This document shows positions 2,542 through 54,134 of a stretch of DNA of 64,000 bases, piece by piece (the stretch's first letter is position 1; the number at the start of each line of letters is the position of its first letter). The notes beneath the pieces are model-generated. The model was not told where the DNA came from and did no database searches. It saw only the letters and a list, made by a program, of their open reading frames with translations. The stretch is from Nannochloropsis oceanica (taxonomy: Eukaryota > Sar > Eustigmatophyceae > Eustigmatales > Monodopsidaceae). Where the stretch lies: positions 682,001-746,000 of the forward strand of contig CP038112.1 in assembly GCA_004519485.1 (NCBI GenBank), in the 5' to 3' direction. Position numbers and translations under genes: made by a program.

Positions 2542-3340
2542 GCGGTGAAGGAGAGCTAAATCCCTCAGCACGTAAGCAGCGGTGGACGGCCCATACCACT
2601 CCCCGGGAAGCTTATCGTATGACATGCCGACCTATTCCATCGAGGGCGAAAGGGGGGGGAAGGGGGGAGGGAGGGAAGGAACGGGTGCTTAAGAAAGAGA
2701 AGGAAGGAAGGAGGGAGGGAGGGAGGGAGGGAGGGCCTGTACCCACCTGGACCATGTTATGGATGGAAAAAACGTGCTCTGGTCCCGGGGCATCGATGAA
2801 ACACTGCAGCAACTGACAATAAATCGGATTCCGTTTGAGATCATCCATATCCCGTGGAGCCCGCCAATCGCGTCCGAGGGTGTGCCTGAAGGAAAGAGGG
2901 AGGGGGAGGAAAGGGATTAGATCATTTCATTCCACCCTTTGCTTCCCTTGCCTTCGGCTTCTTTAGTTCCCTCCCTTCCTCCCCCCCTCTTTCCCGCCCT
3001 CCCTCCCTCCTTACCTCAGCAAACCCTCCCCCATCATCATCTGTGCCGACCGCAGCATGCATCCCCATCCGGCGTCGTCTGTGTAGGGGTAGGGAGCCAT
3101 CGCCGGGAAATTACACCGGTAGGTAAACCAGGGAATAGAGCGGTAGTGTCGTGTCCATCCGTCCAGGTCCTCACTGTCGTAACGTTTACCCAGGATCCAA
3201 CGGCCGTGTGAAGAGGAGGTCGAGGAGGGAGGGAGGGAAGAGGGGTGGGAAGAGGGAAGGAAGAGCTCGTAGAGAATTTCGCGTGGGCGGGAGGTAGAGG
3301 TGGAGGAAGAAGAAGGAGAAGAGGAGAGGATAAAAGACAT
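1075..3340 (-). CDS. ATG4: Cysteine protease ATG4 (autophagy, ATG8-processing)
   Basis: ATG4 cleaves the ATG8 C-terminus and delipidates ATG8 in autophagy. I place four exons: about 3340-3015, 2885-2747, 2631-2045 and 1687-1075, with consistent phases. Exon 1 carries the catalytic-Cys block YTDDAGWGCMLRSAQMM. Exon 2 holds LGRDW and a block ending FSIHNMVQ. Exon 3 has GEWYGPSTAAYVL and ILLVPLRLG. Exon 4 has LNPDYIPGL, IGFVGGKPNHAIYFVG and the Asp/His block GLDPHTVQ. Exon 3 also carries polyglutamine from a (CTG)n tract and long Ser runs. Exon 4 carries two in-frame GREG-type inserts, one between the YFVG strand and the LDPHT motif. The acidic C-terminus ends DEYVIISAG, which resembles an LC3-interacting motif. 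A stop precedes the GTG at 3370, so I take the ATG near 3340 as the start; an upstream exon is possible. Confidence 0.9.
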
Positions 3341-5743: not shown

Positions 5744-8591
5744 TTATACCCCCACCTTTCGTTCTTCCTCCTCCTCTTCCTCCTCACCCGCCAAGATAAG
5801 CAAGGCCCCCTCCTCCTTCTTCGCCTCTCCCTCCCTCCCTCCCTCCATCTTCATTCCCCTGTAGGCCCCGTACAGGCAGCCTTCTGCGGCAATAAGGTTG
5901 AAGACTAAGACCAGCCAGACGCACTGAGGAAACTCCCACACGGTGGCGTTGTAAATGCTGTTGAGAACCAAGGGCGTGAGGGCCGTCATGAGGGTTTCCA
6001 TCTGGGGACAAGGCGAGGGAGGGGAGGGAGGGAGGGAGGGAGGGAGGGAGGATGAGGAGGATGTTGAGAACCAAGGGCGTGAGGGCCGTCATGAGGGTTT
6101 CCATCTAGGGACAAGACGAGAGAGGGGAGGGAGGGAAGGAGGGAGAAAGGGATGTGGCCAAAAGCTGAGAAAGGAGGGAAGGAGGGAGGGAGGCAGGTAG
6201 GGAGGAGGTAGGGAGGGAGGGAGGGAGGAATGGACGATTACCGCAGAGAGGGCCGCGAAAAGCTGTCCTTGTGAGTCTTGCGCGATGGCGAGGGAGAAGA
6301 TGGACCGGAGGTGGGGGTAAGCTACTTGGCTTAGGGCATTCAAGGGAATGGTGCCAAAGGCAGCGGCGGGGGAGGGGACAAGGACGAGGAGGAGGAAGTA
6401 GAGCATGTTTAAGGAGAAGCCGATGGCGACGAAGCGGAAATCGTTCAAGGGTCGGCGGAGGCGCCGATAGAGGAGGGGAAGGAGGACGAGCATGACCAGG
6501 CCTTTGCTGCCGCCCGCAAGGCCTTCGTAGTAGCTGCGGGGAAGGGAGGGAGGGGGGGAAGGAGGGAGGGAGGGAGGGAAGAATGGGTGGCGTGCCGGTG
6601 GTCGAGGACGGGGAGGAGGGAGGGAGGGAGGGGGGGGGGGGGGGAGGGGGGGGAAAGGCTCACATGCGCACACGGACGAGATCTTGACGAAAGTGATGGA
6701 GAGAGGAAGGGGGAGAGAGGGGGGAAGGGGGGGGAGGGAGGGGGGGAAAAAGGGGAGGACGTACCCGAGTGTGTCTGGCTTCCAATGAAAGACCCTCTTT
6801 CCGTAGTATATGAATATTGTCCCCTGTCCTACCAGGTCCGAAAAGGCAAGGCAAAAACACGCCGACAGCCAAAACAACGGCGGGACCTTCACCTTGCCCT
6901 CCCTCCCTCCCTCCCTCCCTCCCTCCCTCTGGTGGCTGGTGTGGCCGTGCTGGCGGGTGAAGAGAAACTGATACAGCACCACAAAGGTGTTGTGTTGACG
7001 AAACGGCCGAAACGGCTCTTGGGGTTTATCTTCCGGGTCCAGCGACTCCTTCACCCGCCAGCCTGAGAGAGGGAGAGAGGAAGGGGGGGGGTTAAGGAAA
7101 GTTTTGGGATTGCATGCCAAGGCCCCTCCCTCCCTCCCTCCCTCCCTCCCTCCCTCCCTCCCTCCCTCCCTCCCTCCTCACCCAGGAGTGTGATGGTCAC
7201 CAGACAAAGCAGGGCATTAACGAGCAGCGGCAAGTAGAAGCCATGGCTCTTGAGGAGTAGCCCGGAGACGAGGGGGCCAAGCGTGTTGCCTACTGCAATC
7301 GAGCCGACGATTTTCGCAAAGAGGACACCACGATCCGCCGGGGCTCGCTTCGTGATATCTGCGGGTTGGTTGGGAGATGGGGGTGAGGATGAGATACATG
7401 CATCAGTGCATATGCATCATTGTAAATCGATTCTATGCAACAGGACGCCGCGTGCCGGGGATTGGTCGGTGGGGAGAATAGAGAGAGCGGGGGAGCGAGG
7501 GCAAGGGAGGAGGTACCTGCAGCGTACGCGTAGATGCCGGTGAGATAGACACCGTAGGAGCCTGATAAACCGTACACGATGGTACCCACATACAGACAAA
7601 TCAGTGCCGCCCGATACGAAGAAGGGGAGGATGGCACCCCGGGCGTGGTGGCGGTGGAGGAAGAAGAGGAAGACGCGGAGAAGGTGAGGGCGAGGAGGAG
7701 TAGGCAGATGTTGAAGAGGGCGCCGCAGCTCGTGAGGATGACGGCTTTTTTTCTCCCCCAGTAGTCTGACATGGCTCCCAGGGTTCCGACCGTCAGGGTG
7801 GCACTGGCAAATTCCAGGGTGTACAGGTACTGAGGAAGTGAGGGAGGGAGGGAAAGAGGGAGGGAGGGAGGATCAAAAGAGGGAAAGAGGAAAGGAGGGA
7901 GGGGGAGGAAGGAGAATTAGAAGGCGTAAGTGAAGGAGGGAGGAAGAAAGGAAGTGAGGGAGGAGGGAGGGAGGGGTTGGCACGTACCTTGATCGTCAAA
8001 ACGGAAGCACCGCTGACCTCAGGGCTGTTGCAATCGCTAGCTCCCATTCTGTCGCATTCAAGCTGGAGGAATGAGGAGGAGGGAAGGGGAGACAGACGAA
8101 GGAAGAGAGGGAGAGGAGGGGGGGGATGTAAGAAAAAGTGTAAGCTTGGCATGAAGATAGGTACATGGCAATATGAACGTGAAGGGCGTTCGATAAGCCC
8201 GACATAATTTCTATGGAAGGTGACTATCATAGGGGATGGAGAGGAGGAAGCAACGGACGGACGGACGGAAGTGTGGACGAACCTGGATGATGAACTGGGA
8301 GAGAATGGGCTGGATCCCAAAGAGGGAGAAATAGAATAAGACGCTGGGGAGAAAAGTAGGCCACATGGACATAGCTAGCGCCGGTTTTCTCACGCTTGCT
8401 GACGCTGTGGCTGCGGCACCGGTACCATGAATGCTGTTGTCGTCCTTGATCGGGATGATGAGGGGTTGAGTTAATAACGTAGAAGGCGTGGAGGTGGCGG
8501 TGGAAGAGAAGGAGGAGGAGGATGGGGAGGAGGTGGAGGAGGAGGAGGAGGATGGGGAGGAGGCTGCCTTGCTTCTTCCACCTTCCCCCAT
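5744..8591 (-). CDS. Major facilitator superfamily transporter (SLC46/TetA-like)
   Basis: A multi-exon membrane transporter. Exons: about 8591-8283 (Ser-rich N-terminus, then a membrane segment ending QPILSQFIIQ), 8062-7988 (lumenal loop with three Cys), 7829-7517, 7358-7182, 7062-6765, 6533-6242 and about 6001-5744. Exon 3 carries the MFS motif-A-like GAMSDYWGRKKAVI after the second membrane segment. Exon 4 reads VGNTLGPLVSGLLL and LPLLVNALLCLVTITLL. Exons 5-7 supply the C-terminal helices (FWLSACFCLAFSDLVGQGTI; FSLNMLYFLLLVLV; WLVLVFNLIAAEG). Exon 5 has an in-frame GREG-type insert in the presumed cytoplasmic loop between the two halves. The C-terminus is an acidic Glu run. The substrate cannot be read from sequence. 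The start is the first good ATG; the frame is open back to an acceptor at 8635, so an earlier exon is possible. Confidence 0.82.
5960..6134. repeat. Tandem duplication of the last transporter exon's 5' edge
   Basis: The 72 bases at 5960-6031 recur at 6063-6134 with about three differences. Each copy contains, in sense, a 3' splice acceptor followed by the same 14 codons (METLMTALTPLVLN). Only the copy nearer the stop continues into the membrane helix. The other runs into a pyrimidine repeat. The offset is 103 bp and GGGA tract lies between the copies. This gives two competing acceptors. High identity suggests it is recent. Confidence 0.9.
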
Positions 8592-16800: not shown

Positions 16801-17543
16801 CTCGTGCACTGATCTCGCCGATGAACAAAGTTGAAGGCCTGACCATATTAGTGGATGGGCCTTACGGGAAGCTCTCCATAGATTTGAGCAACTACCGCAA
16901 GCTGGTGCTGGTGGCTGGCGGGATCGGCATCACTCCCATGACAACAACCCTTTCGTTTATCAGCCATCAGAAACGTCACCATCAATTGCCTTTGCTTGAG
17001 AGCGTCATTCTTGTGTGGGCTGTCCGAAACAAAACGCTAGTGGATGGGTTTATCCCTTTTTTGGATCAGACCTTCTCGCAGCTCAATTCTCTGGAAACGC
17101 CTAGCTTCTTCAAGGTGGAATTGTATGTGAGTATAGGATCTAAATCCGCGGCTGTTCCTGCTGCAGCAGACGCCGCTGGTAGTGCTAGAGTCATTGTCTC
17201 AGTTGGTAATGGTGACGAAAACTCTGAGATGACGCGAGAGGCCGAGATGAATGGTGCATCCGCTGAAGTGGAAAAGAGAGAGGTGAAGCAAACGATACGC
17301 ATAGGAAATAAGAGCCCTGAAGATGGGAGTGGGACAGCGGTGAGTGCGCCGCCGAGCCCCTTTAATATCCATTATGAACGGCCGGATATTGCGAGGGTGA
17401 TGGAAGGGTTGTTTGGAGAGAAGGAAAAAGTAAGCGAGGAAGTGGGTGTGCTGGTGTGTGCATCGAAAGCTCTTTTGTTTGAAGTGCAGCGACAGTGCGT
17501 GCGCTGGGACGTTGACTTGCACGCAGAGGAATTTGCTTGGTAG
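13808..17543 (+). CDS. Secreted-domain (DOMON) ferric reductase / NADPH oxidase-type flavocytochrome
   Basis: Predicted to move electrons from NAD(P)H through FAD and two hemes across a membrane, to ferric iron or oxygen. Exon 1 is 13808-13960 (51 codons: hydrophobic signal SIACLAVFVLGLGW); the intron 13961-14156 (GTACGT...CAG) preserves phase; exon 2 runs to the stop. About 1,179 residues. Order: an extracellular beta-rich region (52-170, TFTW/TIWGGHH type, perhaps Reeler-like), a SEA-like stretch (about 190-330), DOMON (about 337-485), membrane core from about 494, heme ligands in FHRHLSYLMLAYSILH and YTHYLFIAGTVLTLLH (His-x13-His, His-x12-His), FAD motif HPISIST near 802, VDGPYG near 950, VAGGIGITPM near 970, and aromatic tail EEFAW. 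The FAD-NAD linker holds two copies of a GLTGSxPTFSxGD unit missing from copy 1. It is the downstream member of a tandem pair. Iron reductase and superoxide-forming oxidase cannot be told apart here. Confidence 0.88.
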
Positions 17544-21500: not shown

Positions 21501-24230
21501 GCACCATCCCCTCCTTAACCAGCATCCTGCTCGGATCACCCAACAAGGAAAAGGAACCCGAACCTCCCTCGTCTTCTCCCAGGAAGACAATCCTGGAAGC
21601 CAAGCGGTGCATGATGCGCTTTTCGCGCTCGTTTGGAGGGGGGCGAGGGAGGAATGGGCATGGCCTACGGAGCACGTGTGAGGCACGGAGGGAGTGCGAG
21701 CGGTCGAGGGCTGCATTGTCGACCACCTGGTGGGCGTTATTGGGGGCAGCTTGACCGCTGCTGTCGATGTGAGTATTGCCATTGCTGCTGCTGGTGCTGC
21801 TGCCGATATCCCTGATGCCGCTGCTGTTGATGAGGGCAGTGGTCGGGTTCATGTGACGGCTGATGGGGTTGCTGCCACTGTTGGTGGTGCTGCTGCCGAT
21901 ATCCCTGATGCCGCTGCTGTTGATGAGGGCAGTGGTCGGGTTCATGTGGCTGCTAATGGGGTTGTTGCCACTGCTGGTGCTGTTGGTGCCGATATCCCTG
22001 ATGCCGCTGCTGTTGATGAGGGCAGTGGTCGGGTTCATGTGACGGCTGATAGGGTTGTTGCCACTGCTGGTGCTGTTGGTGCTGTTGCTGCCGATATCCC
22101 TGATGCTGCTGCTGCTGTTGAGGGCAGTGGTCAGGTTCATGTGGCTGCTAATGGGGTTGCTGTCACTGCTGGTGCTGCTGCCGATATCCCTGATGCTGCT
22201 GCTGCTGTTGAGGGCAGTGGTCGGGTTCATGTGGCTGCTAATGGGGTTGTTGCCACTGCTGGTGCTGCCGCCGATATCCCTGATGCTGTTGAGGGCAGCA
22301 ATCGGATTCTTGCTACTGCTGCCCAAGGACGTTGAAGGTGCAGAAATAGTACTGCCACCGTTAATGCTGGGAAGGCGGCGGGAGGGAAGGCTGGACAAGG
22401 AGGGCGCGCCTCCTCCTCCTGTTCCTGCCCTTGGCCTTCCCGTGGCAGCAGATGACGGTTTTGGGAGGGAAGATGAAGCAAAAAAATTGATCGCGGAAGA
22501 CCCTGCAGCCGCTGATCTTGCCGATGTTTTTGCGGCTTCTCGCTCCTGCTGCTCCTTCTCCTGCTGCTGTGACTGCTGCTGTGACTGTTGCTGTGACTGC
22601 TCCTCCTGCTGCTGCTGTGGCTGCTGCTGTGACTGCTGCTGTGGCTGCTGTTGCTGTGACTGCTCTTCCTGCTGCTGCTGTGGCTGCTGCTGTGACTGCT
22701 GCTGTGGCTGATCTTGCTCGTTATGCTGGTGCTGGTGCTGCTTTGGCGGCTGTCGCAAGGGGGATGCAATCGATAGTCCTCGTGATATGCTACTCAGGGC
22801 CTTAGAGGCGGTGGCGCCAAGGCGTAGATTAAGGGTGGGATGCATGCTGACTTTGACGTTGGCTCTGCGGGTAACCGTGGGGAAGGCTTGCCTATTGTTG
22901 CTTTCGGGCTTGGAGGTATTCTGAAGAAGGCTGTTTTCTCGGCCCGGGGTATGCAGGCCAAGGGGTTTTTCCATGTTGGGAGGGGCTGGGCTGCTATCGC
23001 TTTCGGGCTTGGAGGTATTCTGAAGAAGGCTGTTTTCTCGGCCCGGGGTATGCAGGCCAAGGGGTTTTTCCATGTTGGGAGGGGCTGGGCTGCTATCGCT
23101 TTCGGGCTTGGAGGTATTCTGAAGAAGGCTGTTTTCTCGGCCCGGGATATGCAGGCCAAGGGGTTTTTCCATGTTGGGAGGGGCTGGGCTGCTATCGCTT
23201 TCGGGCTTGGAGGTATTCTGAAGAAGGCTGTTTTCTTGGCCCGGGGCATGCAGGCCAAGGGGTTTTTCCATGTTGGGAGGGGCTGGGCTGCTATCGCTTT
23301 CGGGCTTGGAGGTATCATGAAGAGAGCATTTTTCTTGGTCTAGGGCATGAAGACCGAGGGGGGTTCTCGTGATGGGAGGGGCTGGGCTGCTATCGCTTTC
23401 GGGGCTGGAGATGATAGAGGAGTCCTCTTCGTCTAGGGCATGAAGACCAAGGGGGGTTCTCGTGATGGGAGGGGCTGGGCTGCTATCGCTTTCGGGGCTG
23501 GAGATGATAGAGGAGTCCTCTTCGTCTAGGGCATGAAGACCGAGGGGGGTTCTCGTGATGGGAGGGGCTGGGCTGCTATCGCTTTCGGGCTCGGAGATGA
23601 TAGAGGAGTCCTCTTCGTCTAGGGCATGAAGACCAAGGGGGGTTCTCGTGATGGGAGGGTCTGGGCTGCTATCGCTTTCGGGGCTGGAGATGATAGAGGA
23701 GTCCTCTTCGTCTAGGGCATGAAGACCAAGGGGGGTTCTCGTGATGGGAGGGGCTGGGCTGCTATCGCTTTCGGGCTCGGAGATGATAGAGGAGTCCTCT
23801 TCGTCTAGGGCATGAAGACCGAGGGGGCTGTAGTCTGTTTTATGGACAGGAGGGAGGGAGGTAGTTAGAAAGCATAAAAGGGAAAAAAGAAAGAGGTAGA
23901 AGAAACATGAGTAATTAATACGTAATTTTCGTGTTCATGCGTGGAAGAGACTCAAAGTGTATGTCCAATCTCTTGACCAAGAGAAATGATGGAGGGAGGG
24001 AGAGCTCTGAGGATTGAGTCAAGCAGCACATACTTGGGGAACCACGCCGTCTTACAACACGCATATAATGTACAGGTATGTGTACATATAGCAACATGTG
24101 TGTTGCCGACGAGTCAAAGGTGAAAGAAGGGTAGTGCATCGATCATCTCCTTACCATTGTCTATGCTGCTGCTTTTGGGGGAGGGATGCTTGCTCTCTCC
24201 CCGTCCTGCAACCAGGTCGATGTCTTCCAT
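18571..24230 (-). CDS. Repeat/PH/ankyrin/FYVE-like protein ending in an R-SNARE-like motif
   Basis: Three exons with matching phases: 24230-24155 (MEDIDLVAGRGESKHPSPK...), 23834-18964 and 18699-18571, giving about 1,691 residues. Order: about 9.5 copies of a 33-residue repeat (26-340, LGLHxxxxEDS...PESDSSPAPP), polyglutamine (393-460), six copies of an IRDIG...NPISSHMNPTTAL repeat (528-708), a PH domain (about 796-916, MLVKEGMVLKKG...HLLLFSDCLLV), ankyrin repeats (about 1003-1291, ETPLHVAARFGQIGIVKLLL), a FYVE-like zinc domain (about 1480-1541, four C-x2-C pairs, with RRQCCQACG where FYVE has R(R/K)HHCRxCG), then QAQSMMDENMILMQ|ERGEKL across the last intron, followed by DRMTYKTERMKKGAMDFAE and a KKWWEF end. 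The last part matches the VAMP-type R-SNARE core, with Arg at the zero-layer position (ERxxKL), but no membrane anchor follows. Likely an endosomal tether or fusion regulator; function is inferred. Confidence 0.85.
21780..22330 (-). repeat. Coding minisatellite, about 90-bp unit, about six copies
   Basis: Tandem copies inside the FYVE/SNARE gene encoding IRDIGSST...NPISSHMNPTTALINSS units of about 27-33 residues. On the plus strand they appear as repeated GATATCCCTGATGCTGCTG and GGGCAGTGGTCGGGTTCATG. Unit lengths vary by whole codons, so the frame is kept. Confidence 0.85.
22880..23834 (-). repeat. Coding minisatellite, 99-bp unit, about 9.5 copies
   Basis: Each unit encodes 33 residues. The copies nearer the start (about 23340-23834) read LGLHALDEEDSSIIS(S/E)PESD; the later copies (about 22900-23340) read LGLHTPGRENSLLQNTSKPE. 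Within each block copies are nearly identical, which points to two rounds of recent homogenisation. The antisense strand is also open through the later block, which explains a 167-codon plus frame there; I consider that a shadow. Confidence 0.9.
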
Positions 24231-25156: not shown

Positions 25157-28100
25157 CTACTCTAAGGTAAGAAGCACCCGCACTACTTCCCTCCCTCCGT
25201 CACTCCCTCCCTCCGTCCCTCTTTTCATTCCCGACGACGTCACTCGCAGCCAAAATACCCCCTGCTCCTCCTCGTCCATTGCCCACAAATCCTCCCCTCC
25301 CTCCTTCCGGCCACTATCCCATCCGTCTTCATCAACATGAACAACGTGCCTCCATCCCCCTCCATCCCCTCCGTCCGCCTGCCTGATGTCCACCACATGC
25401 CCTCCCTCTTTCCCACCCACGTCAGAAGACAGCCGTTTCACCCCTCTTACACTCCATCCTCCCTCCCTCCCTCCCTCCCTCTTCCCCAAAGGCATCCGTA
25501 ACGGCAATGCCAGCTGTAAGATAAATGTGTTCGAGAACGGCGCATCCGATGCAGAGGGCGGAGAAAAAGTGCAGAGGAGGGAGGACGCGATGGAGGACGA
25601 GAGGGAAGACGCGGGATAGGGATGAATGGTGTAGGCGCCCCCATCCCATTGCGGGCCAGATGTGGAGCTGTTAATGTCGTGCGTTTTGTTTATGTTGTAG
25701 AGGCCGTCAGCTTGTCCGAGTGAGCAATCCCCTCCCTCCCTCTCTCCCTCCCTCCTTCCATACTTCCTCTTCATGTGCGTGTCAGTACATGCAAAGGGCA
25801 TCCCACACCCTCACTCTCTTCCTCCCTCCCTCCCTCCCTTCCTCACCTCAATCCCTCATCGAGCCACGCCCACAAATGAAGCACATGCCGCATCGTCCCG
25901 TACCTCCTCCTCCTCCTCTTCCCTCCCTCCCTCCCTCCCTCTTCCTTTTTCCCTTCCTCCTCCTCCTCCTCGCTCATGCACCACACCGATGGGTCCAGCG
26001 TGGGTACTATCGTCCCTGCCCGGACAAAGACAGGCAACGTATCGATAGGAGCCGCCACAGAAACGGACTTGAGGAGGGGAGGGAGGGAGGGAGGAAGGGA
26101 GGGAGGGACGGTCGGTGGGAAGAAGGGGGTGAGTGAGGGAGTGAGGCAGGGCGGGAGGGAGGGAAGGAGGGAATAGCTCCATGTGTAGTACCTTAAGAGG
26201 CGAGGAAAATTGATTCAACAGTGAAGCTGCACACAAAACGGACACATCGAGGTCTAGCCCTCCCTCCCTCCCACCCTTCCTCCCCCCCTCCCTCCCTTAC
26301 CTGTCCCCCCTTCCACAAGCGCTGTCTCCCCGCAATCCGGAAACGACCGTCGTCCTCCTCGTACCTCAGCCCGCTCGACACGTCCATCCATTCGTTGGAG
26401 GAGGAGGGTGAGGGAGGGAGGGAGGGAGGGAGGGTTTTGTGGCAGTCGAGGGGGAGGTAGACGACTTGGATGCTTTGATTGGGGAGGAGGACGGGAGCGA
26501 GGAGGAGGGAGGGACCGAGGAGGTACTGGGAGTCGGCGACGGTAGGGTTGGACCAGGCCTGAAGGGAGGGAGGGAGGGAGGGAGGACAGAGTGAGTGAGG
26601 AGGAGGGAGGGGTGCAGAAAAACACCACGAAACGCGGGGGGTAACAAAGAATAACAATGATGGCACAGCCACAAAATGCTGCTTGAGAGCTCTTGTCCCT
26701 CCCTCCCTCCCTCCCTCCCTCCCTCCCTCTCTCCCTACCTTGCTATCACCCGGGAAGGAGAGGAGGTGGTGTCGTAACAGGGGCAAGCCTGTGGTGTGGG
26801 CCTCCAGAGCTGCCGTGTAGAGGTAGGGAAAGAGGGCCGTACGGAGCTTGGCAAACTGAGAGGGAGGGAAGGAGGGAGGGAGGGAGGGAAGGAGGGAGGG
26901 AGGGAGGGAGGGAGGGAAGGAGGGAGGAAAGGGAACTTAAGTACAGGGCGCCTTGAACTCAACTTCCTCTTCCCTCCATTCCTCTCTTTCCTCTTCCTCC
27001 CTCCCTCCCTCCCTCCCTCCCTCCCTCCCTCCCTCCCTCACCTTCCTGTACACCCTGGAGCCTTCCTCCGAGTCATGGACGTGTGTCTTCGGAAGCTTAA
27101 ACAGCGAGGTGCCGCCTGTCTGTGTATGCATCATGCCCGAGGCCACGCCCACCTGAGGGAGGGAGGGAGGGAAGGAGACGGAGAATTTAAGGAAAAATCA
27201 TGTACTCATGCATGAGCCGCAGCAGCCGTTTAGCGACAAGCCTTTTCCCTCCCTTCCACCCTCCCTCCCTCCCTCCCTCCCTCCCTCCCTCCCTCCCTCC
27301 CTTACCGCTGTCCACCGCAGCCACAGCTCTTCAGAGGGCGGCTCTTCCCACACGAAGCCCCCAATATCCGACCCGGAGAATGGAATCCCGCTCAAGCCCT
27401 AGGAGGGAAGGGTGGGAGAGAGGGAGGGGGGGAGGTGAGAAATTCATATCGAATGCCTCCTTCGCCCCCTCTCTCCCTCCCTCCCTCCCTCCTCCTTACT
27501 AGTGTCAGCTGGGCCTTGACCTGGGCGGCCAGCCCACTGTCCTTATCCCACCCTGCGTACGGATCACCTGTAAGGGCAGGGAGGGAGGGAGGGAAAGAGA
27601 ACTCGTCAGAACGATCAATTACCGTCCTTCCTTCTTGTCTTCCCTCCCTCCCTCCCTCCCTCCGTCCCTCCCTCCCTCCCTCTCTTATGCAAGCTTGTGT
27701 ACCCTCCCCTGTAGGGACAGTAGAGAGACGTATCTTCCCTCCCTCCCTCCCTCCCTCCCTCCCTCCCTCCCTCCCTCCCTCCCTTCCTCCCTCCCTCCCT
27801 CCTTCCCTCCCTCCCTCCTTCCCTCCCTCCCTCTCTCCCTCCCTCCCTCTCTCCCTCCCTCCCTCCTTCCCTCCCTCCCTCCCTCCCTCCCTCCCTCCCT
27901 CCCTCCCTCCCTCCCTCCTCCCTCCTTCCTTCCTTCCCTCCCTCCCTCCCTCCCTCCCTCCCTCCCTCCGTCCGTACCTGTCCAATGCGCCCACATCCAG
28001 GCTTGGGAGCCCGTGTATCCGCTTCGGACGTAATACAAAAATGGAGGCGCGAAACGAGGGTCGGAGGTAGGAGGCTGCTTGCTCTGGGGGGTGGGTGGGA

Positions 28101-31100
28101 GGAAGGAAGGAAGGGAGGAAGGAAGGGAGGGAGGGAGGGAGGGAGGGAGGGAGGGAGGGAGGGAGGGAGGGAGGGAGGGTGTGGTTTACGTAGGAAGGTC
28201 GGCAGTGGCAGCTTGCTTGCTTTCAAACACCTCCCTCCCTCCCTCCCTCCCTCCCTCTCGTCCTCCCTCCCTCCCTCCCTCCCTCCTCCCCCCACCCCCC
28301 TCCTGCCTCACCATAAAGAAATCGAAGGCCGCCCGCTGGTACTGGAGAGGGTAGAGATTATGGGCCGCTGCCCCCGAGAGGCGGGAGTACGTGAGCGTGT
28401 GTGGTGACACGTACTCTCCATAATCGTACATCCACCCGCTGAAGCCTGGGAGGGAGGGAGGGAGGGAGGGAGGGAGGGAAAGGGAGGGAGGGAGGGAGGG
28501 AAAGTGTGTCTCCCTAGTCGTACATCCACCCGCTGGCGCCGGCCATGGAGGGAGGGAGGGAGGGAGGGAGGGAGGGAGGGAGGGAGGGCACCCACCGAGG
28601 TCCAGCCCCTCCTGCATCTTGGCTTGGAACCATGCCGTGGTGTTGGGGTGGGAGAAATCGAGGAGGGAGGCGTAGAAGGCATCCGGGCCTGCGCCCTTGT
28701 AGGCGAATGTGTAGAGGGAGCCGTTGGGCCGGTGGAGGAAAAAGTTGTCACGCTCGCACTGGAGGGAGGGAGGGAGGGAGGGAGGGAGGGAGGAAGAGGA
28801 CGGGAGGGGGAGGAAAAGTGATTGCTCGGGTGCTTTGAAGCTCCATGTTTTCCTCCCTCCCTCCCTCCCTGCCTCCCTCCCTACCTCCTGGTATTCCGGT
28901 GTATAGCGTTGGTCCAACATGGAGTTAAAGTAAGCCACAGGCATCAGGCCTGCTGCCCGGACCTGAGGGAAGGAGGGAGGGGGAAGGGGGTAATATGGAT
29001 ACCTCTACGTAAACATGAATACCTTCACCTCTCGGGCGGGCGGCACGGCCTCTCTTTCCCTCCTTTTTTCCCTCCCTACCTCCTCCCCTCTCTCTTCGCG
29101 CATTAATTTCACCATGCCATCTCCCTCAACTTCCCCTTCCCCAGGAGGGATCAATCAAGCTCGGCCTCCCTCCCTCCCTCCCTCCCCCCCTCTCCTCCCT
29201 CCCTCTCTTCCTCTCTCCCTCCCTCCCTCCCTACCCGCGCATTCCGCCTCCTGATCTCCTTCTCATTACCCTTCTCGCTGCCCAGGGGGAAAAAATGGAC
29301 CGGGTCAATGGCCACAGAGCTGGAGGGAGGGAGGGGGGGAGGGAGGGAAGGGGGGAGGGAGGGAGGGGCAAGAGGAAGGGTGTAGCAAAAAAATGTGAGC
29401 GAAAGAAATGAAGAGGAGGCAGAGCACTTAAATGCACTCCTTCACCCCCTCCCCACTTCCATCAGTGAGTAATAAAATAAATGGAATGCATGAACGAATG
29501 AATCAATAAAACAATTAATTAATCGATAAATCATACTTTCAATAAATAAAAAACTAAATATATCAATAAATCAATGAATTACCTGGGTATGTCCAGCGCC
29601 TGGAACCTGACGAGGGCCTCCTCAAAGGAGGTATCATTAAATTCATTCGCGAATTGATTCCAGCACCCGAACTGATATTTGGGGGGGATCAGGGAGCGGC
29701 GGGGGGCTAGGGAGGGAGGGAGGGAGGGAGGGAGGACAAGGTGAGGTGCAACACGTCAAAAAGTCCGTTTCCCCCCGTATTTTTTTATCGATCCTCCCCT
29801 CTCGTCTTCCTTCCCTCCTTCCCTCCTTCCCTCCTTCCCTCGACACCAAGCAACAGCGGGGCCCTCCCTCCCTCCCTCCCTCCCTCCCTCCCTCCTTTGG
29901 CACCTACCGACAACGGGACCGGTGAAGAGGGAAAGAGACTCCGCCGGTGTCTGGCCCAAGAAGAGGAGGACTTGAGTGGAAAGGCTCTCCACCTGGGTGC
30001 CGAGGGAAGGAGGGAGGGAGGGAGGGAGGGAGGGAGGGCATGAATGCCACAGGCGGGAAGGAAGAAATGAGGGAGGGAGGGAAGGAGAGAGGGGGGGAGG
30101 GGGAGAGGAGAGAGGGTGGCGTCCGGACGTACCAGGAAGTCGAAAGCAGGCCTGCCCTCCTCCTCCTCCTCCTCCTCCTCCTCTTCCTCCTCCTCGTCCT
30201 CCTCTATTCCATTTGGGGGAGACAAGACACTTCTTATCCTCCTCATCCTCTCTTCCCTTACCACCCCTCCCTCCCCTCTTCCCTCCTTCATCGCCGCCGA
30301 CACCCCCCCCTCACTTTCCCCCTCCTTCCTCTGGTACTCTCTCCGTTGCTCCTTACTGTCCAAGCGCCAGTCGGAGCGGTAAGTTGTATTGAGGAGGAGG
30401 CCGTAGCCCCGGGAGGAGAGGAGGAAGGGAATGGGCACGTCTGGAGGGAGGGAGGGAGGGAGGGAGGGGGGTTTTCAAAATGGTGGGGATGGCCAGAGAA
30501 GACAAAGTCTCCCCCCTCTCCCCCCTCCCTCCCCCCCTCACTCCCTCCTTACAGGTCGATCTCTCCTTCGGGAGACGCACTTCCTTCCCCAGCACCCACG
30601 ATCCATCCTCCGCCCAGCAGTATAGCTCGTGTCCTCGTTTGTTGGTGGTGCCGGCGAACCTGAGGAGGGAGGGAGGGAGGGGGGGAGGGGGGAAGGAGTG
30701 GATACATGGGCCAATGGATAGATGTCCGCCCCTCCCTCCCTCCCTTCCTCCCTCCCCCCCCTCCTCACCGCTCCCCGAAGCCAAAGAGCCCTTCCTCTAC
30801 CCCGCCCTCCATCGCTTCCTCAATCGCCCAGGCCATGCCTAGCCGGTTTGCCACGAGCGTGCTGCTGCCTGTGTGAGGAAGGAGGTGGGAGAAGGAGGTG
30901 GAAGACATGTATGTATACGTATATATAATAATAATAGTAATAATTCTTATAATTTCATCAACATAATGTACAGGTCGGTAAAGGAAGAACGAGGAAATGA
31001 AGTCATGCATCAAGTGGAGAGGGAAAAAGGGAGGCAGGAGGAATCCACTCGGCTGTTGACATATATCGTACACTATACATAGACACACACGTGCAGTATA

Positions 31101-34709: not shown

Positions 34710-37700
34710 TTAAACCACTCGGTTGTCCTCCCTCACCTCGATGGTGCGGTTGTTGAGGGTGGTGCCATTAAGAGAGTCCTGCGCCCGTTGAGCCTCAGCC
34801 ACCGTTCCAAAGCGGACCTGATGGGGAGGGAAGGAAGGAGGGACAGAGGGAGAGAGGGAGGGCAGATGAGCGTGTGCAGAAGGGAGAAGGGAGGGAGGGA
34901 GGGAGGGAAGAAGGGAAGGTGGGGGGGGGGCGTACCGTTCCAAAGCCCCGGGAGCGGCCGTCGGCATCATAGGCTACCTCAGCACGCTGGACGTCAAAGC
35001 CCTTGAAGTGGTCTTTAAGGCCCTGCCAGGTGATCTACAGACAAAGGGAGGGAGGGAACGAGGGAGGGAGGGAGGGAAGGCCGTCAGAAGGACGTCTGGA
35101 TCGACGGGAGCAGCCTCAGACAAGCAGCAGACCCTCTCACCATCCCTCCTCCCCTCAACTACCCTTACCCTCCCCTCTTTCCTCCCTCCTCCTCACCTCA
35201 AAGTCCAGGTTTCCGACATAGAGCTGCCTTCCCGCCGCGGACGGAGGCCCTCCTCCCCCTCCTCCTCGCATGGCCGCCCCCTGGCCCATATTGGCGTGGA
35301 AGCCGCCGCCGACGGGGCCGCCGACCTGGAGCAGGGAGGGAGGGTAGGAGGGGGTGAGGGAGGGTTAGGCGGGTGGGTGCGGAGGGAGGGAGGGAGGGAG
35401 GGAGGGAGGGAGGGGCTTACCTTCTTGTCTTCCCGGTCCTCGCGCACAAAGATGAGCCGGCCTTTGAGGTCCGTATTGTTCAACTGAAGAGGGAAGGGAC
35501 GGAGGAAAGGAGGGAGGAAAGGAAGGAAGGGAAGGGAAGCAGGAAGGAAAGAAAGGAAGGGAGAGGTCCTCGTGAGTGTGGGGTTCTAATGTGCTGGCGT
35601 ATCTTTGTTTCTGGATCTCCCTCCCTCCCTCCCTACCTCCCGAATGGCCCGCATGGCGCCATGGGGGTTGTCGTACTCGACAATGCCACAGCCTTTGGAC
35701 CGTCCGTCATGGTCCTCCAACACGTCCGCGTGCACCACGTTCCCCACCTGGACAAGGGAGGGAGGGAGGGAGGGAGGGAGGGAAGGAGGTGAGTCAAGAG
35801 TACCTGGCAGACTTTCCATAGGCCCTTGCTTGTCCTCCCTCTCCCTCCCTCCATCCTCCCTCTTCCTTCCCTCTTCCTTCCCACGCTACCTCCCTCGCTA
35901 CCTCCCTCGCTCCCTGCCTCCCTCGCTGCCTCCCTCGCTCCCTCTCTTCCTCCCTACCTTGCGCATGTGGTCCTTGAGGTCTTGCCACGCCACCTCATAC
36001 GACAGGTTGCCGACATACACACGCACACCCACCCCTCCCGGGGCTCCTCCGCCCCGCCCTCCGCCGCGACCTCCCGCGCCCGCCGTGGGGGGGAAGGGCC
36101 CCGCGCCGGGATATTGCGGAGGAGGGGCGTGATGGTGCACCACGGGGTGATGGACGACATGATGGCCCGCGTGAGGATGATACACCACTTGCTGCTGCTG
36201 GTGATGGGGAGGGAAGGAAGGAGGGAGGGAGGGAGGGAGGGAGGGTGGGTTTCCTTTCTGGACGGCTTTTTTTTTTTTTTTTTTGACGAGCGGGCAGGAA
36301 TCGAGGAACGAGCAAAGGGAGGGAGGGAGGGAGGGAGGGAGGGAGGGAGGGAGGGAGGAAGGAAAAAAAGGCTCACCTGGTGGTGGTGGTGCTGCTGGTA
36401 CATGTGCTGGTGCCCCCCACCCCCGCCTCGTCCTCCTCCTCCTCCCTCGCCCGCGGCGCCGCTCTCTCGGTCCTCCCGGACAAAAATGGGCCGGCCGTTG
36501 AGGGTGGTGTTGTGCAGACGCTCGATGGCAGCTGCCGCCTAAGAGAAGGAGGGAGGGAGGGAGGGAGGGAGGGAGGGAGGTAGGTGTGAGGGATTGTGTC
36601 AATGGATTATGACAGTTCAGTTCATGTAAGACGGCCCATGTTTTCCCCTCCCTCCCTCCCTCTCTCCCTCCCTCCCTCCCTCACCTCCTCCGGGGAGTTG
36701 TACTCCACAATGCCACAGCCCTTGGACCGCCCCGAGGGCTCCGTCAGCACCTCGCAGTACGACGCTGAGGGAGGGGGGGAGGGAGGGAGGGAGGGAGGGA
36801 AGGAAATGAATAGAAAGGTTCTTTCTTTCTCCGACGATCCAGAAAACGAAAATGGTATGATTTCATGCATGCTCACTAACATTTATCCCCATACCCTCCT
36901 TCCATCCATCCCTCCCTCCCTTCCTCCCTCCCTCCCTTACTCACTCTCCCCCACTTCCGCCATGTGGGCACGGAGCTGTTCCCGGTCCACATTCCACGAC
37001 AAGTTCCCTACATAGACACGCTGTGCTTGACGGGCAGGATCCAGCTTCTGCGGCTCCTCCCCTGCCGGTCCCATGGCAGCACCGGCCTCGCGATCCTCCC
37101 GAAGGAAGATCTGACGGCCTGGGAAGGGGGGAGGGAGGGAGGGAGGGAAGGAGGGCAGGAGGGTGAGATGGAGAAGAGCGATGGGGTAATAAGACGAAGA
37201 AAGGAAGGGAGGGAGGGAGGGAGGGAGGGAGGGGTACGTACCATCAAGGTCCGTGTTGTTAAGGGTGGCGATGGCCTGACGAGCCTGGGCGGGAGTCTTA
37301 AATTCAACCAACCCACAGCCCTTGGAGCGACCCGTCGCATCCAGAAGGACGTCAGCGCGGATGACTGAAGGAAGCAAGGAAGGGGGGCGGGCGGGAGGGA
37401 GGGAGGAATAAGACTTTCTTTCTACCTCGGAACTGCGCTTGTCAGGACGACACCCTCCCCTCTATCCCTACGCCTATCTCTCCCCCCACCCCCTTTCCTT
37501 CCCTTCTCATCTCCTTATCCTTCTCTCTATCCACCTCCTCTTTCCATGCCTTCTCTTCCCTTCCCTTCCCTTCCCTTCCCTTCCCTTCCCATCTCCTCAC
37601 CCTCTCCGACGGTCTTCATGTGGTCCTTGAGCCCCTGCCACGCCGTACTCCAGGACAAGTTCCCCACGTATACTCGACGGTTGTTCGGATTCACGGGCGC

Positions 37701-42196: not shown

Positions 42197-44249
42197 TTAT
42201 CCTGTCGAGGACCATGTGAACAAATAGAGTAGTAGAGAAGTCCCATGAGCAAGGATCGAATGAATCACTCTCACATCCCTCGAACCATCCCTCCCTCCCT
42301 CCCTCCCTCCCTCCCTACCATGCTGGAAGAAAGCCCCCTTGCCCAGATTAAAGTCTGTGAGTTTCTCGATAATGTCGTCTTTCTCCTTCTGAAGCTCCTT
42401 GATCAGGTCCTGTGGAAGGGAGGGAGGGAGGGGAAGGTGAGTCGGAGGGAGATCAACGGGATGAAGGACGAGGTAGACAGATGGAAAACACAAACAAGAC
42501 AGAAAGACATATCCACGCGATTACATCACGCATAAATAATAACATAAGGAGGTACAAACGCATGTGTTTCTACATAGATACAAACACACATCATTCCCAC
42601 ATTCACAGACGAGGGTGCGAGCCATCTGCCCCTCCCTCTTTCCCTCCCTCCTTCCCTCCCTCCCTCCCTCCCTACCTTGATAGAGAGCATGCCCACCACC
42701 TCCTTCTTCTCATCATCCACCACGGGCAAATGTCGAATGTCCTTCGCTAGCATCTTCTTCATGCACGTGGCGATCCTGAAGGAGAATAGAGGGAGGGAGG
42801 GAAGGAGGGAGAGAGTGACATACACAACATGGAAGAGATAGCTCGAGTGAGCAAAGAACCTGCTTCAAGGTTGAGATCCGCCCAGCCTTTCCTCCCTCCC
42901 TCCCTCCCTCCCTCCCTACGTGTCTGTCGTCTTAGCCACAACAATGTTGCTCCCGCGGGTGCAGATTTCCCCCACCGTGGTGCTCTTGGAAGACCGACCC
43001 AATAAGGCGATCTACATGGCAGGGAGGGAGGGAGGGAGGGAGGGAGGGAGGGAGGGGGAGTGGTGAGATGCGATTGTTACATGCCTGTTCACCTCTTCCT
43101 GTCTCCGAGCTCTCTCTGCTCTTCCTCTCGCGTTCCTCCATGCCTTCCTCCTTCCTTCTCTCCCTCCCTCGTTACTGCCTTCCCTCTTTTCCTACCTTGC
43201 AGACGTAGTCTCGCTCAGAAATGACGCCGATCACTTTCCCCGCGCTGTCGGTCACGGCCAAGGCACCGATGTTGTAGGCGGCGAAGCTGAAGGAGGGAGG
43301 GAGGGAGGGAGGGAGAGAGAGGGGGGGAGGGAGGGGTGTGAGTGGGAAAGGAGACGGAGAAATATAGTAGTAGTAGTAGTAATAATAATAATAATTATAA
43401 AAATAATTATAATAATTATAATAATACACATTTTAAAATGAGAATTGAACGACAACGGTAAGTAGTAAGTACATAAAGGACGAATTTCGATTTGAACCAA
43501 CGGCCGAACTCCAAAACACATTGTTACAGACCCCCTCCGTCCTTCCCTCCCTCCCTCCCTTCCCACTCACCGTTGGACAGCCTCGTACATCATGGCGTCC
43601 TCCGTGATCTTGAAGTCGATCTTGAAGTAACAGCTCTTCTCCCATGCCGTTTGCGCCGTGCCTGGGCCAGGGCGAGAGAAAGGAGGAATGGAGGGAGGGA
43701 GGGAGGGGAGGGAGGAGTACATGTAAGGAGACGCACCACCAGCTTCGAGACAAGGAACAAGAAGCGCGCAAATAGCTCTCATAACTACAACAGACACGAT
43801 ATCAGCCACATTCTAGTGCCAGCTCTTCCACTCGCACTCCTTCTTTCCCGTCCTCCTTCCCTCCCTCCTCCTCACCTTTCTCCCCGATGCTGGTGGGGAT
43901 ATCTTTGTAGGGTCGACCTAGATACGATGGCTCTGAAATGGAGGAGAAACCAGCAGCACTCGCATGGGCAGGGGCGGCTCGTACGGCCTGTGAGGTGACG
44001 TGCGTACAAGCGTGAGAATCTTTTGAAAGGAGGAAGGAAGCTGAGGCGGAGAGGAGGAAGGGAGGGAGGGGGGGCAACTAGGGATGGGGGGCACGCAAGC
44101 ATGCTGCACATAGGTGTGCAAGAGCGAGAGAGAAGGAGACAATCAAGACATGGGGCATCGAGACTTACGTGCTTGACGGCAGCCATGGCAGCAGGTTGGC
44201 GTTGCGCCAATTTGGAACCCAAGCTGCTGATGGCACGACGGGCAAACAT
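42197..44249 (-). CDS. Mitochondrial CBS-domain protein (CBSX3-like)
   Basis: Exons match plant CBSX3 in order: an N-terminal Arg/Ser-rich presequence (MFARRAISSLGSKLAQRQ, 44249), GRPYKDIPTS, AMMYEAVQR (about 43.6 kb), FAAYNIGALAVTDSAGKVIG with VISERDYVCK (43.25), LLGRSSKSTTVGEICTRGSN (42.98), MLAKDIRHLPVVDDEKKEVV with GMLSIK (42.72) and DLIKELQKEKDDIIEKLTDF (42.4). The last coding exon is minimal: CAT G|GA TAA joins across the final intron to end in His-Gly at 42197. Two CBS modules are present; in CBSX proteins these bind adenosine nucleotides and tune mitochondrial thioredoxin. Targeting is inferred from the presequence and homology. Confidence 0.85.
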
Positions 44250-52200: not shown

Positions 52201-54134
52201 AGGGAGGGAGGGAGGGAGGGAGGAGGGTACCTGTCTGGGCATTTCGGAGTTCAAGGATGGTAGGGGCACCTGAGGGAGGGAGGGAGGGAGGGAGGGAGGG
52301 AGGGAGGGAGGGAGGGGGAGGGAGGGAGGGAGGGTATAGTGGATGGGAGGTGAGAAAGAAGGGGCAAGAACATTGGGCACGTGGCAAGACACTCCACCCC
52401 TCCCTCCCTCCCTCCCTCCCTCCCTACCCAAGGAGAGAGAAACCACACCATCCCTAAAGGCGTGGTGTGCTTCCACATGTCCATTGATGCCTTGTCCAGG
52501 CATGTATTCGTTAAGCGTCATCTGATTGGGAGGTACCCGGAAGAGGCCTCCGTCGAGGAGCCGCTTGAGGACGGGCTTGAAGGAGGGGTGGAGGAAGGGC
52601 AGGGGGGCAGGGCGGGGGTGGAAGACGACGTCGCGGGTGGTGTAGTCGAAACCGTAGCTGGGAGGAGGAAGGGAGGGAGGGAGGGAGGGAAGGTTTTGAG
52701 AAATGGAAGGGCAGGCATTGGTTGATGTGGGCCCTTTCATCTTCCCTCCCTCCTTCCCTCCCTCCCTCCCTCCCTACCCATAATGCTGCACCCGCCGTGT
52801 CATTCCTTCCTTCCCCTCGATCCACTTGCTGCTGCTATTGCTGCTGCTGCTGCTATTGCTGCTGCTGCTAGTGGTGGTGGTGGTCTTTGGTCCCCCTCCC
52901 CCTCCTTCCACCTCCTCATCAGCAAAGGCCAACAACGACGCTTCCTCCTCTTCGGTTAGAAAATTCTAAGACATCAAAAAAGAAAATAAGGACAATAGGG
53001 AGAGGGATTGAAAGGAGGGAGGAAGGAGTTAAGGTCGAAGAAGCATGCGTACCCCCATCCTATGAAACCTCCCTCCCTCCCTCCCTCCCTCCCTCCCCTC
53101 CGTCTCTCCCTCCCTCCCTCCCTCCCTCCCTCCCTCCCTCCCTCCCTCCCTCCCTCCCTCCCTCCCTCCCTCCCTCCTCCCTCCCTCCCTCCCTCCCTAC
53201 CTCCCTCCCTCCCTCCCTCCCTCCCTCCCTCCCTCCCTACCTCAATGAGCATCACCCCAGGTATATCCACCTCCAGGGAGGCTTGCTCAAACGGATCCAA
53301 TGGCTCGGGGTGTGGTACCTTGTTGCGCTCGAGAGGGAGGGAGGGAGGGAGGGAGGGATGGAGGGAAGGAGGAGGAGCGTGAGAGAGGGAAGGAGCGTCA
53401 AGACTCTCTCCTCCAGCAGTATTGTTGCATCGCACTGCGCATTTCTTCCCTCCCCTTTTTCCCATAGCTTTTTTCCTCCCTTCCTCACACTCACCTCCTC
53501 ATCTGCCGTCACCATCACCGAATATTGCACCTTCGGCACTCTCCTCCCTCCTATCAACGGCGGTCCCCTTCCCTCCCTCTCCCCCTCCTTGTCCCCCACC
53601 CCTGCCAGTGCGTCCTTGGCCCTCTGGGCGCTGTTCTTATCGAGGTAACGCACGAGGACAAAGCCTCTTTTCGCAGGCGCTTCAATGGCCAGACCCTCGC
53701 TGTCGTCGAGCGGGCCGTAGGTCTCCAATAGGGCACGAAGCTCCTGTGGGAGGGTGGGAGGGAGGGAAGGAGACGGGCGAATGGAATCTCCCTTGACTTG
53801 CCACACTTCCTAAACTTTGAGACACCACTGGATTGCTATCAAGAAGCAAAAAAGATTGGTAGTTTCGACCCACCTATTTATGCCTGCAGTTCTTACACCT
53901 ATCCACAACCTCCCACATCCCCCACCCCACCTTCCCTCCTTCTACGGAACCAACCTGCAGGTCCGTCTTGAGGGCATCTCCAATGCCTGAGAGGTACAAA
54001 AAGCGCGTGGGCACATTTTCCTGGCCATAGGGAGCAGGATGGAGTCCAGGTTGTAAGGGTTGCGGGTCGTGTGGCGGCTCGAGCGGCGGAGGCGTACGCG
54101 AGAGTGGTCGAGGCATGGCCGACGTTGGGGGCAT
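49251..54134 (-). CDS. ALKBH8: ALKBH8: tRNA wobble-uridine hydroxylase and methyltransferase
   Basis: Completes the mcm5U and (S)-mchm5U modifications at the tRNA wobble position. Exon order from 54134: MPPTSAMPRPL..., RRM start RFLYLSGIGDALK (to 53955); RGFVLVRYLDKNSAQRAKDA (53743-53495); AlkB start PFEQASLEVDIPGVMLIE (53.3 kb); FLTEEEEASLLAFADEE (52.95); NQMTLNEYMPGQGINGHVEA with HHAFRDGVVSLSLG (52.6-52.43); PTILELRN (52.24); ALALWGEARYVWTHGIPDRR (52.1); RRVSYTMRRI (51.78); then the Trm9 part IEKEHVHSV (51.37), IAPHWNHTRAIRRVHWP (51.13), ADVGCGDGKYMQLKRF (50.85), FDAALCIAVLHHLSTEAHRY (50.4), LRELLRIVRVGGVIDVHVYT (50.0) and LVPWNMQ ... YDKGNWYVTIRK (49.75-49.25). Architecture matches animal ALKBH8 (RRM-AlkB-MTase) in one gene. 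Iron ligands read H-x-E and H; see the finding. A Ser/Asn-rich insert lies in the AlkB part. Confidence 0.92.
50952..51066. repeat. Duplicated exon edge in ALKBH8
   Basis: The exon end at 51051-51066 (plus TCAAGGCATAGGGCGG) recurs at 50952-50967 in the following intron with one difference in 16 bases. The offset is 99 bp, with GGGA/TCCC-type sequence between. Shorter and weaker than the transporter and GH31 cases. Confidence 0.6.

Follow-up and report, generated by a model that had tools for sequence, protein, structure and literature searches.

Orientation, register and regional concentration of AGGG microsatellite tracts at intron ends in Nannochloropsis oceanica

Introns in a 64,000-nucleotide stretch of the Nannochloropsis oceanica genome (positions 682,001 to 746,000 of contig CP038112.1, assembly GCA_004519485.1; hereafter the window) carry tracts of a single tetranucleotide microsatellite, (AGGG)n/(CCCT)n, whose orientation differs between the two intron ends. 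Read in the sense of the gene, tracts at acceptors are oriented as TCCC, a rule that is strict, and tracts at donors are oriented as GGGA more often than as TCCC, a preference that is moderate. The tracts join the GT of the donor preferentially in registers that keep a G at +5, they are concentrated in particular parts of the genome, and the two ends of an intron give no detectable sign of having been matched to each other. The explanation that we favor, and regard as probable though well short of certain, is that one tetranucleotide was expanded regionally and that its orientation was set separately at each splice site, the complementarity of the ends being a by-product.

Orientation and register of the tracts at splice sites

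The window lies on one (C15) of the 32 contigs that make up this 29.26-Mb genome. Introns were predicted by a simple gene finder, self-trained on the window and other loci of the N. oceanica genome, that required GT and AG, and a junction was counted as supported where a protein alignment to a solved structure ran ungapped across it with at least three aligned residues on either side, as judged by eye. Ten genes were aligned (THOC2, propionyl-CoA carboxylase alpha, a kinase, proteasome alpha, chorismate synthase, ETHE1, AOX, a CBS-domain protein, a GH31 protein and an RRM protein), and homology supports 37 of their 87 predicted introns, the rest lying beyond or at the margin of the alignment, or at a gap in it; GT-AG fits in frame at all 37 junctions, both dinucleotides having been required by the finder. 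It is from this protein homology that we infer splicing of the tract introns. Tract motifs were scored within 30 nt of the donor or near the acceptor, and we refer to introns with a GGGA donor and a TCCC acceptor as G/C and to those with TCCC at both ends as C/C. Predicted introns of at least 64 nt in tract-rich loci numbered 149, from which a strict set of 111 was obtained by removing 38 in which donor +3 is not a purine, acceptor -3 is not a pyrimidine, or the length exceeds 1,000 nt. Loci L001-L008, L030-L033 and L036 were picked from listed GTAGGG tracts, and L034 and L035 by position; L003 (which overlaps L002), L009 (plastid), and L018 and L020 (26% GC) were left out of the counts. L036 yielded no predicted gene, and of the seven 3-kb loci used, five yielded none.

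Among the 37 supported introns the acceptor carries TCCC in 31, GGGA in none and neither motif in six, and the donor carries GGGA in 20, TCCC in eight and neither in nine; base skew follows the same lines, with C-skew at 37 of 37 acceptors and G-skew at 28 of 37 donors. Similar distributions are seen in the strict set (donor GGGA 43, TCCC 20, neither 48; acceptor TCCC 65, GGGA 0) and in the 149 unfiltered introns (acceptor TCCC 76 vs GGGA 8; donor GGGA 61 vs TCCC 22). Within the window alone, where no choice of locus enters, supported donors are GGGA in seven cases and TCCC in two (n = 11), and the 43 strict introns have 17 GGGA and 7 TCCC donors together with 27 TCCC acceptors and no GGGA acceptor. 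Divided by group of loci, the strict donors stand at GGGA vs TCCC 17 vs 7 in the window, 25 vs 12 in the selected loci and 1 vs 1 in those chosen by position, and tract-poor introns from interior loci (n = 49) display a weak polarity in the same sense (donor GGGA 11 vs TCCC 2; acceptor TCCC 6 vs GGGA 0). Within the window as a whole, the minus strand contains 12 copies of GTAGGGAGGGAGGG and the plus strand one, and GGGAGGG and CCCTCCC are near balance (388 vs 371). The strand polarity of GGGA and TCCC relative to splice sites, which an earlier note on this DNA had proposed and set as a check beforehand, is thus real, being borne out in the supported, the predicted and the genome-wide counts. 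A general transcription-strand bias was rejected as its source, since such a bias would give a single orientation across the intron; the orientation observed is reversed from one end to the other, and the two orientations are nearly equal in between, the donor bias of the strict set falling to near parity about 40 nt into the intron.

The register of the tract at the donor can be read across the whole genome without any gene model. The base preceding TAGGGAGGGAGGG is G in 1,055 cases and A, C or T together in 417, and the preference is reversed in the register that would place the tract A at +5 (G 199 vs A/C/T 926). Locally, GT is followed by a tract A at +3, +4, +5 and +6 in 41, 17, 0 and 11 cases, respectively.

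Two further points concern donors. Donors of the form GTACGT, which place a C at +4 opposite the canonical U1, begin 5 of the 20 strict introns with a TCCC donor, 8 of the 48 with a tract-free donor and 1 of the 43 with a GGGA donor. PMC10943562 reports that N6-methyladenine in N. oceanica occurs at two motifs, AGGYV and GAGG, with an enrichment immediately ahead of splice donors; the first motif resembles an exonic AG joined to GTR, and the second is identical with the tract unit.

We consider it extremely improbable that the introns are spurious, the gene models having simply taken their GT and AG from the edges of tracts. The finder did err, skipping two exon regions of the GH31 gene (28083-27978, and below 26558), the acceptors with a GGGA motif numbered eight before filtering and none after it, and alignment support extends to just 37 of the 87 introns in the ten genes, all of which speak for such an artefact; the 37 junctions nevertheless interrupt ungapped stretches of alignment with solved homologues, and the model-free counts of GT at tract edges agree with them.

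Regional concentration of the repeat

AGGG repeats are approximately 14 times as dense in loci picked for their richness in tracts (49.6 bp per kb) as in interior loci (3.6 bp per kb), and within these tract-rich loci tracts fill introns (131 bp per kb) more than intergenic DNA (38) or coding exons (2). Tract DNA makes up 0-1.2% of twenty 10-kb loci inside contigs and 5% of the window. On a position map that covers 66 of the 145 long GTAGGG tracts, on contigs C1-C14 and C16, a distance of no more than 200 kb separates 53 tracts from a contig end, where 31% would be expected to lie so close; for 300 kb the figures are 62 tracts and 47%. Two outer loci were selected purely by position, and one of these, L035, is tract-rich (2.1%). 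General inflation of microsatellites was rejected as an explanation, as AGC is not raised (4.0 bp per kb in tract-rich vs 5.7 in interior loci) and AGG stands at 7.0 vs 4.3; other purine units are also raised, at levels far below that of AGGG (AG 2.05 vs 0.63 and AAGG 1.41 vs 0.20 bp per kb). A genome built throughout on this design, as the earlier note had it, is therefore wrong in scale: the design is regional, superimposed on a weak polarity that interior introns share.

The relation of these regions to chromosome ends is seen in part. Among the matches listed, which show only C1 and C2, C1 has TTAGGG arrays at both ends, and the C2 tracts among those listed, at 1,202-1,586 kb, flank an internal TTAGGG array (near 1,402 kb) on both sides. 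This array (C2:1402002-1402580, G000) runs forward and then reversed, like two telomeres placed head to head, and represents either an assembly join or a chromosome fusion. Possible interaction-map errors are mentioned in PMC6610115; the assembly authors hold repeat-rich contigs responsible for them, and not the order of the contigs. Because of these possible errors and the internal C2 array we use the term outer zone provisionally; the term regional is independent of it. The mapped long GTAGGG tracts are also unequally divided between the halves of their contigs, with 54 of the 66 in the right half and 12 in the left. Separately, two 10-kb stretches, L018 (C5:200001-210000) and L020 (C6:300001-310000), have a GC content of 26-27% as compared with about 54% for the genome, and are possibly centromeric.

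Tract-rich loci hold about four times as many predicted introns per kb of coding sequence as interior loci (3.11 vs 0.79), and open reading frames (ORFs) of at least 300 aa cover 19% of the former and 47% of the latter, a contrast that fits intron retention or gain and, as regards the ORF figure, also a lower gene density. Both figures are in keeping with the idea that the tracts create introns, that is, that repeats inserted or expanded in coding DNA became introns and that the outer zones gained introns in this way. We nonetheless regard this as very unlikely: intron loss in interior genes would produce the same contrast, the tract-rich loci were selected, and a comparison of 111 masked intron bodies gave 0 matches, so that an introner family, which should show similarity between introns, can be discarded.

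Pairing of intron ends and the origin of the polarity

Complementary simple repeats stand at opposite ends of 18 of the 37 supported introns, and the earlier note had suggested that such ends pair, looping out the intron body and bringing the splice sites together. Predicted folds allow this, in that all 18 G/C introns form at least eight end-to-end pairs, with a median of 30 vs 6 in mononucleotide shuffles, and the joined 50-nt ends have a mean energy of about -62 kcal/mol; end-to-end folding is also predicted for 7 of the 12 introns that are neither G/C nor C/C, and for 0 of 7 C/C introns. The tests of matching, however, are either negative or fit local tract density. In 31 predicted G/C introns the native ends average -61.9 kcal/mol and swapped ends -61.8 (P 0.45), and swapping ends within genes (104 introns) reveals no native advantage (P 0.79), the SD of 0.85 kcal/mol being such that a mean shift smaller than about 1.7 could go undetected. 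Donor and acceptor tract lengths are uncorrelated (0.02), and donor orientation is independent of the acceptor tract, with GGGA at 31 of 44 tract-bearing donors where the acceptor has TCCC and at 12 of 19 where it does not (P 0.57). Eight of the 37 supported introns have a TCCC donor and contain no GGGA motif, so that pairing of these tracts is not required for them, and in one of the eight, other sequence nonetheless allows an end-to-end fold. On the evidence of the swap tests, tract lengths and TCCC-donor introns, we reject end-to-end pairing as the driver.

A functional clamp, in which donor and acceptor are joined by a GGGA/CCCU helix with the intron body looped out, as reported for the repeat-ended introns of zebrafish, is a separate matter. 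The predicted folds, the energy of the joined ends and a co-occurrence of GGGA donors with TCCC acceptors in the strict set (considered below) all speak for it, and repeats as long as these let almost any two tracts pair well, so that a clamp without matching is still compatible with the data; the negative swap and length tests, the indifference of donor orientation to the acceptor tract, the TCCC-donor introns and the presence of a U2AF2-like gene speak against it, and on balance we think it improbable. The U2AF2-like open frame, at C23:436221-437264, scores 302.5 bits, just below the curated cut-off of 310.3, and spans positions 171-510 of 510. A search for branch-site motifs returned C-rich words and no clear site.

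A single scored match to U1 was found, and its 5' end is canonical (ATACTTACCTG), and on this ground an altered U1 that reads G-rich donors was rejected. In fused donors such as GTAGGG, positions +4 and +6 do not fit the canonical U1 match, and a sense-strand motif capable of forming a G-quadruplex (G4) lies within 60 nt of the donor in 19 of the 20 introns with GGGA donors and in 21 of the 37 supported introns overall. Both observations suit the proposal, made for mammals, that G-runs or RNA G4s beside the donor promote splicing at weakened donors, a role that we hold to be possible but doubtful here, since 8 of the 28 tract-bearing donors have TCCC and are equally well supported, and the enrichment is described in PMC9065059 as restricted to mammals and birds. 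G4 potential, like end pairing, follows from the expanded tetranucleotide, and an added function of the G-runs, G4s or hairpin is a potential one.

Under the explanation that we favor, the microsatellite (AGGG)n/(CCCT)n would load the outer chromosome zones, mainly within introns, and each splice signal would set the orientation of the tract adjoining it. As the acceptor must remain pyrimidine-rich, TCCC alone would persist there. At the donor, the G at +5 pairs with U1, and the consensus GTRAG(G) is purine-rich, so that a GGGA tract in the matching register, with a purine at +3 and a G at +5, could fuse to GT and supply the donor from +3 onward; TCCC tracts would be tolerated at the donor, often after a GTACGT- or GTACC-like start. 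A purine-rich filter at one end and a pyrimidine-rich filter at the other would together yield self-complementary ends as a by-product. We infer that the selection is exerted by way of U1 and the recognition of the 3' splice site, and that the tracts arose by expansion. The alternative offered by the earlier note, that the tracts provide donor side and polypyrimidine tract in one repeat-based design, agrees with the strict acceptor polarity, the moderate donor polarity and a register that avoids A at +5.

Several observations weigh against this explanation. The chief one is that GGGA donors and TCCC acceptors co-occur beyond chance in the strict set (odds ratio 2.6, P 0.029), which we attribute to local tract density; native ends also have a slight folding advantage over ends exchanged among all genes (P 0.08, 104 introns), which vanishes in the within-gene swap and is for that reason likewise put down to the local density of tracts. 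At the donor the bias is moderate and in part a product of locus selection, as the tract-rich loci were mostly picked via GTAGGG lists, which favors GGGA donors, and the donor score, trained on interior introns, favors a G at +5. When introns starting with GTAGGGAGGGAGGG are excluded, a step that also discards genuine donors, GGGA and TCCC donors stand at 12 vs 8 in the supported set and 29 vs 20 of 97 in the strict set. The donor counts were weighted down for this selection, with our confidence unchanged because the window alone and the genome-wide counts agree. As to the register, the genome-wide count with the tract A at +4 is 684 vs 956, in which the control is inflated by reversed acceptors, many of the listed controls reading CTGAGGG, a TCCC acceptor on the other strand; and the register with A at +6 retains the +5 G yet lacks local enrichment (11 vs 15 with GC replacing GT), so that the +5 G alone is insufficient to explain the register. 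Finally, the outer locus L034, chosen by position, is tract-poor at 0.6%.

A bolder version, in which the microsatellite is the working splice signal of whole zones, providing the donor side from +3 and the polypyrimidine tract, its copies clamp the intron, and its expansion may have aided the roughly fourfold accumulation of introns, strikes us as unlikely; were it true, repeat copy number would tune the splicing of outer-zone genes. The explanation by regional expansion and separate orientation at each splice site implies that a mutational process acting on part of each chromosome can remodel the splice sites there, with interior genes largely spared, and that intron ends can become strongly self-complementary while showing no sign of mutual matching. 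As a compact, transformable alga, N. oceanica offers many naturally varied introns with a microsatellite donor in the preferred register, which let the U1 match, G-runs and G4s, C-rich polypyrimidine tracts and end pairing be told apart in one genome.

Introns of the window and comparison with known systems

The introns read individually in the window are collected in Table 1. In the GH31-like gene, for which the earlier note had described nearly every intron between 25960 and 28320 as having a G-rich donor and a C-rich acceptor, this polarity is present on the minus strand, clearly in four introns and less cleanly at 28311-28084 and 27977-27568; the wording was too broad, as only 4 of the 14 model introns (those beginning at 29234, 28884, 27305 and 27041) start with one of the quoted donor strings, and the homology-supported intron 28595-28446 has TCCC at both ends. 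The literal strings themselves are rarer than was claimed, with TCCCTCCCTCAG found three times on the minus strand of the window and not at all on the plus. The examples given from other genes held up better. By gene model, the ATG4 intron (3014-2886) and an ALKBH8 intron (read at 52777-52658) have the proposed polarity, and in the transporter intron (7987-7830) both ends carry TCCC; by plain reading, outside the automatic model, the ALKBH8 stretch at about 52430-52273 runs from GGGA to TCCC, the coordinates first given being a few bases off, and that from near 52225 has TCCC at both ends.

Table 1. Individually read introns of the window, with their ends and the basis of each reading (positions are those of the window).
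Gene	Position	Strand	Intron ends	Basis
GH31-like	28084..28311	-	donor GTGAGGCAGGAGGGGGG (G-rich), acceptor CCACCCCCCAG (C-rich)	direct reading and translated flanking exon 28083-27978; outside automatic model; exact acceptor without independent support
GH31-like	27568..27977	-	donor GTACGGACGGAGGGAGGG, acceptor CCTCCCTGCCCTTACAG	direct reading; acceptor common to automatic model
GH31-like	27399..27499	-	G/C class, GTAAGGAGGAGGGAGGG to TCCCTCCTAG	homology-supported junction
GH31-like	27153..27305	-	G/C class, GTAAGGGAGGG to CCCTCCCTCAG	homology-supported junction
GH31-like	26856..27041	-	G/C class, GTGAGGGAGGG to CCCTCCCTCTCAG	homology-supported junction
GH31-like	26559..26738	-	GTAGGGAGAGAGGGAGGG to CCTCCCTTCAG, following exon QYLLGPSLLLAPVL	direct reading; automatic model overran to 25916
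GH31-like	28446..28595	-	C/C class, donor GTGGGTGCCCTCCC, no GGGA motif inside	homology-supported junction
Labelled ATG4 in the earlier note	2886..3014	-	donor GTAAGGAGGGAGGG, acceptor CCCTCTTTCCTTCAG	gene model only
Transporter-like	7830..7987	-	both ends C-rich, donor GTACGT	gene model only
CBS-domain	42410..42675	-	G/C class, donor GTAGGGAGGG, acceptor CCCTCCCTTCCACAG	homology-supported junction 224.0
CBS-domain	42776..42919	-	G/C class, donor GTAGGGAGGG, TCCC-rich acceptor	homology-supported junction 190.7, near two-residue gap
CBS-domain	43287..43570	-	G/C class, donor GTGAGTGGGAAGGGAGGG, acceptor CCCTCCTTCAG	homology-supported junction 129.7
RRM-protein	37119..37241	-	TCCC at both ends, donor GTACGTACCCCTCCC	homology-supported junction 106.3
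RRM-protein	36765..36944	-	G/C class, donor GTGAGTAAGGGAGGG, acceptor CCCTCAG	homology-supported junction 164.3
Labelled ALKBH8 in the earlier note	52658..52777	-	donor GTAGGGAGGG, acceptor CCTCCCAG	gene model only

Elsewhere in the window, a protein predicted from the minus strand at 18571-24230 has near its start about ten tandem repeats of some 30 residues each (PLGLHALDEEDSS-like), with stretches further on that we take to be ankyrin-like, and two adjacent similar genes lie on the plus strand at 10288-11700 and 13808-17543, whose translations suggest proteins of the ferric reductase/NADPH oxidase type.

The statement that no genome of this kind was known has to be qualified, as introns with comparable ends have been described. 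In zebrafish, dinucleotide repeats at opposite intron ends form a hairpin (Lin et al. 2016, as cited in PMC9198270), and noncanonical introns of hemistasiid diplonemids have inverted G- and C-rich ends (PMC12621601). What stands of the statement is that a microsatellite in the donor register and concentrated in parts of chromosomes was not found described in the available portions of the literature searched, on Nannochloropsis genomes and introns and on G- and C-rich intron ends. N. oceanica shares with zebrafish the simple repeats at both boundaries of one intron and the capacity for a hairpin, and differs in that a tetranucleotide is fused to the donor in register, a TCCC/TCCC class exists, no matching of the ends was detected, and a U2AF2-like gene is present. 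The diplonemid introns, according to PMC12621601, are without conserved GT-AG ends; in N. oceanica this absence, a mark of diplonemid and euglenid introns, was not found, all 37 supported junctions being GT-AG and in frame (the finder required both), with a canonical U1.

Introners resemble the tract introns in that many introns of one genome have a common terminal design; the N. oceanica intron bodies, however, share no sequence, and Nannochloropsis goes unmentioned in the main text of PMC9860276. The likeness to mammalian G4 donors, as PMC9065059 presents them, lies in the sense-strand, G4-capable runs beside the donors of short introns, and the N. oceanica donors differ from them in belonging to an alga, in being formed of a single microsatellite, in being usually accompanied by a TCCC tract at the acceptor, and in their regional distribution.

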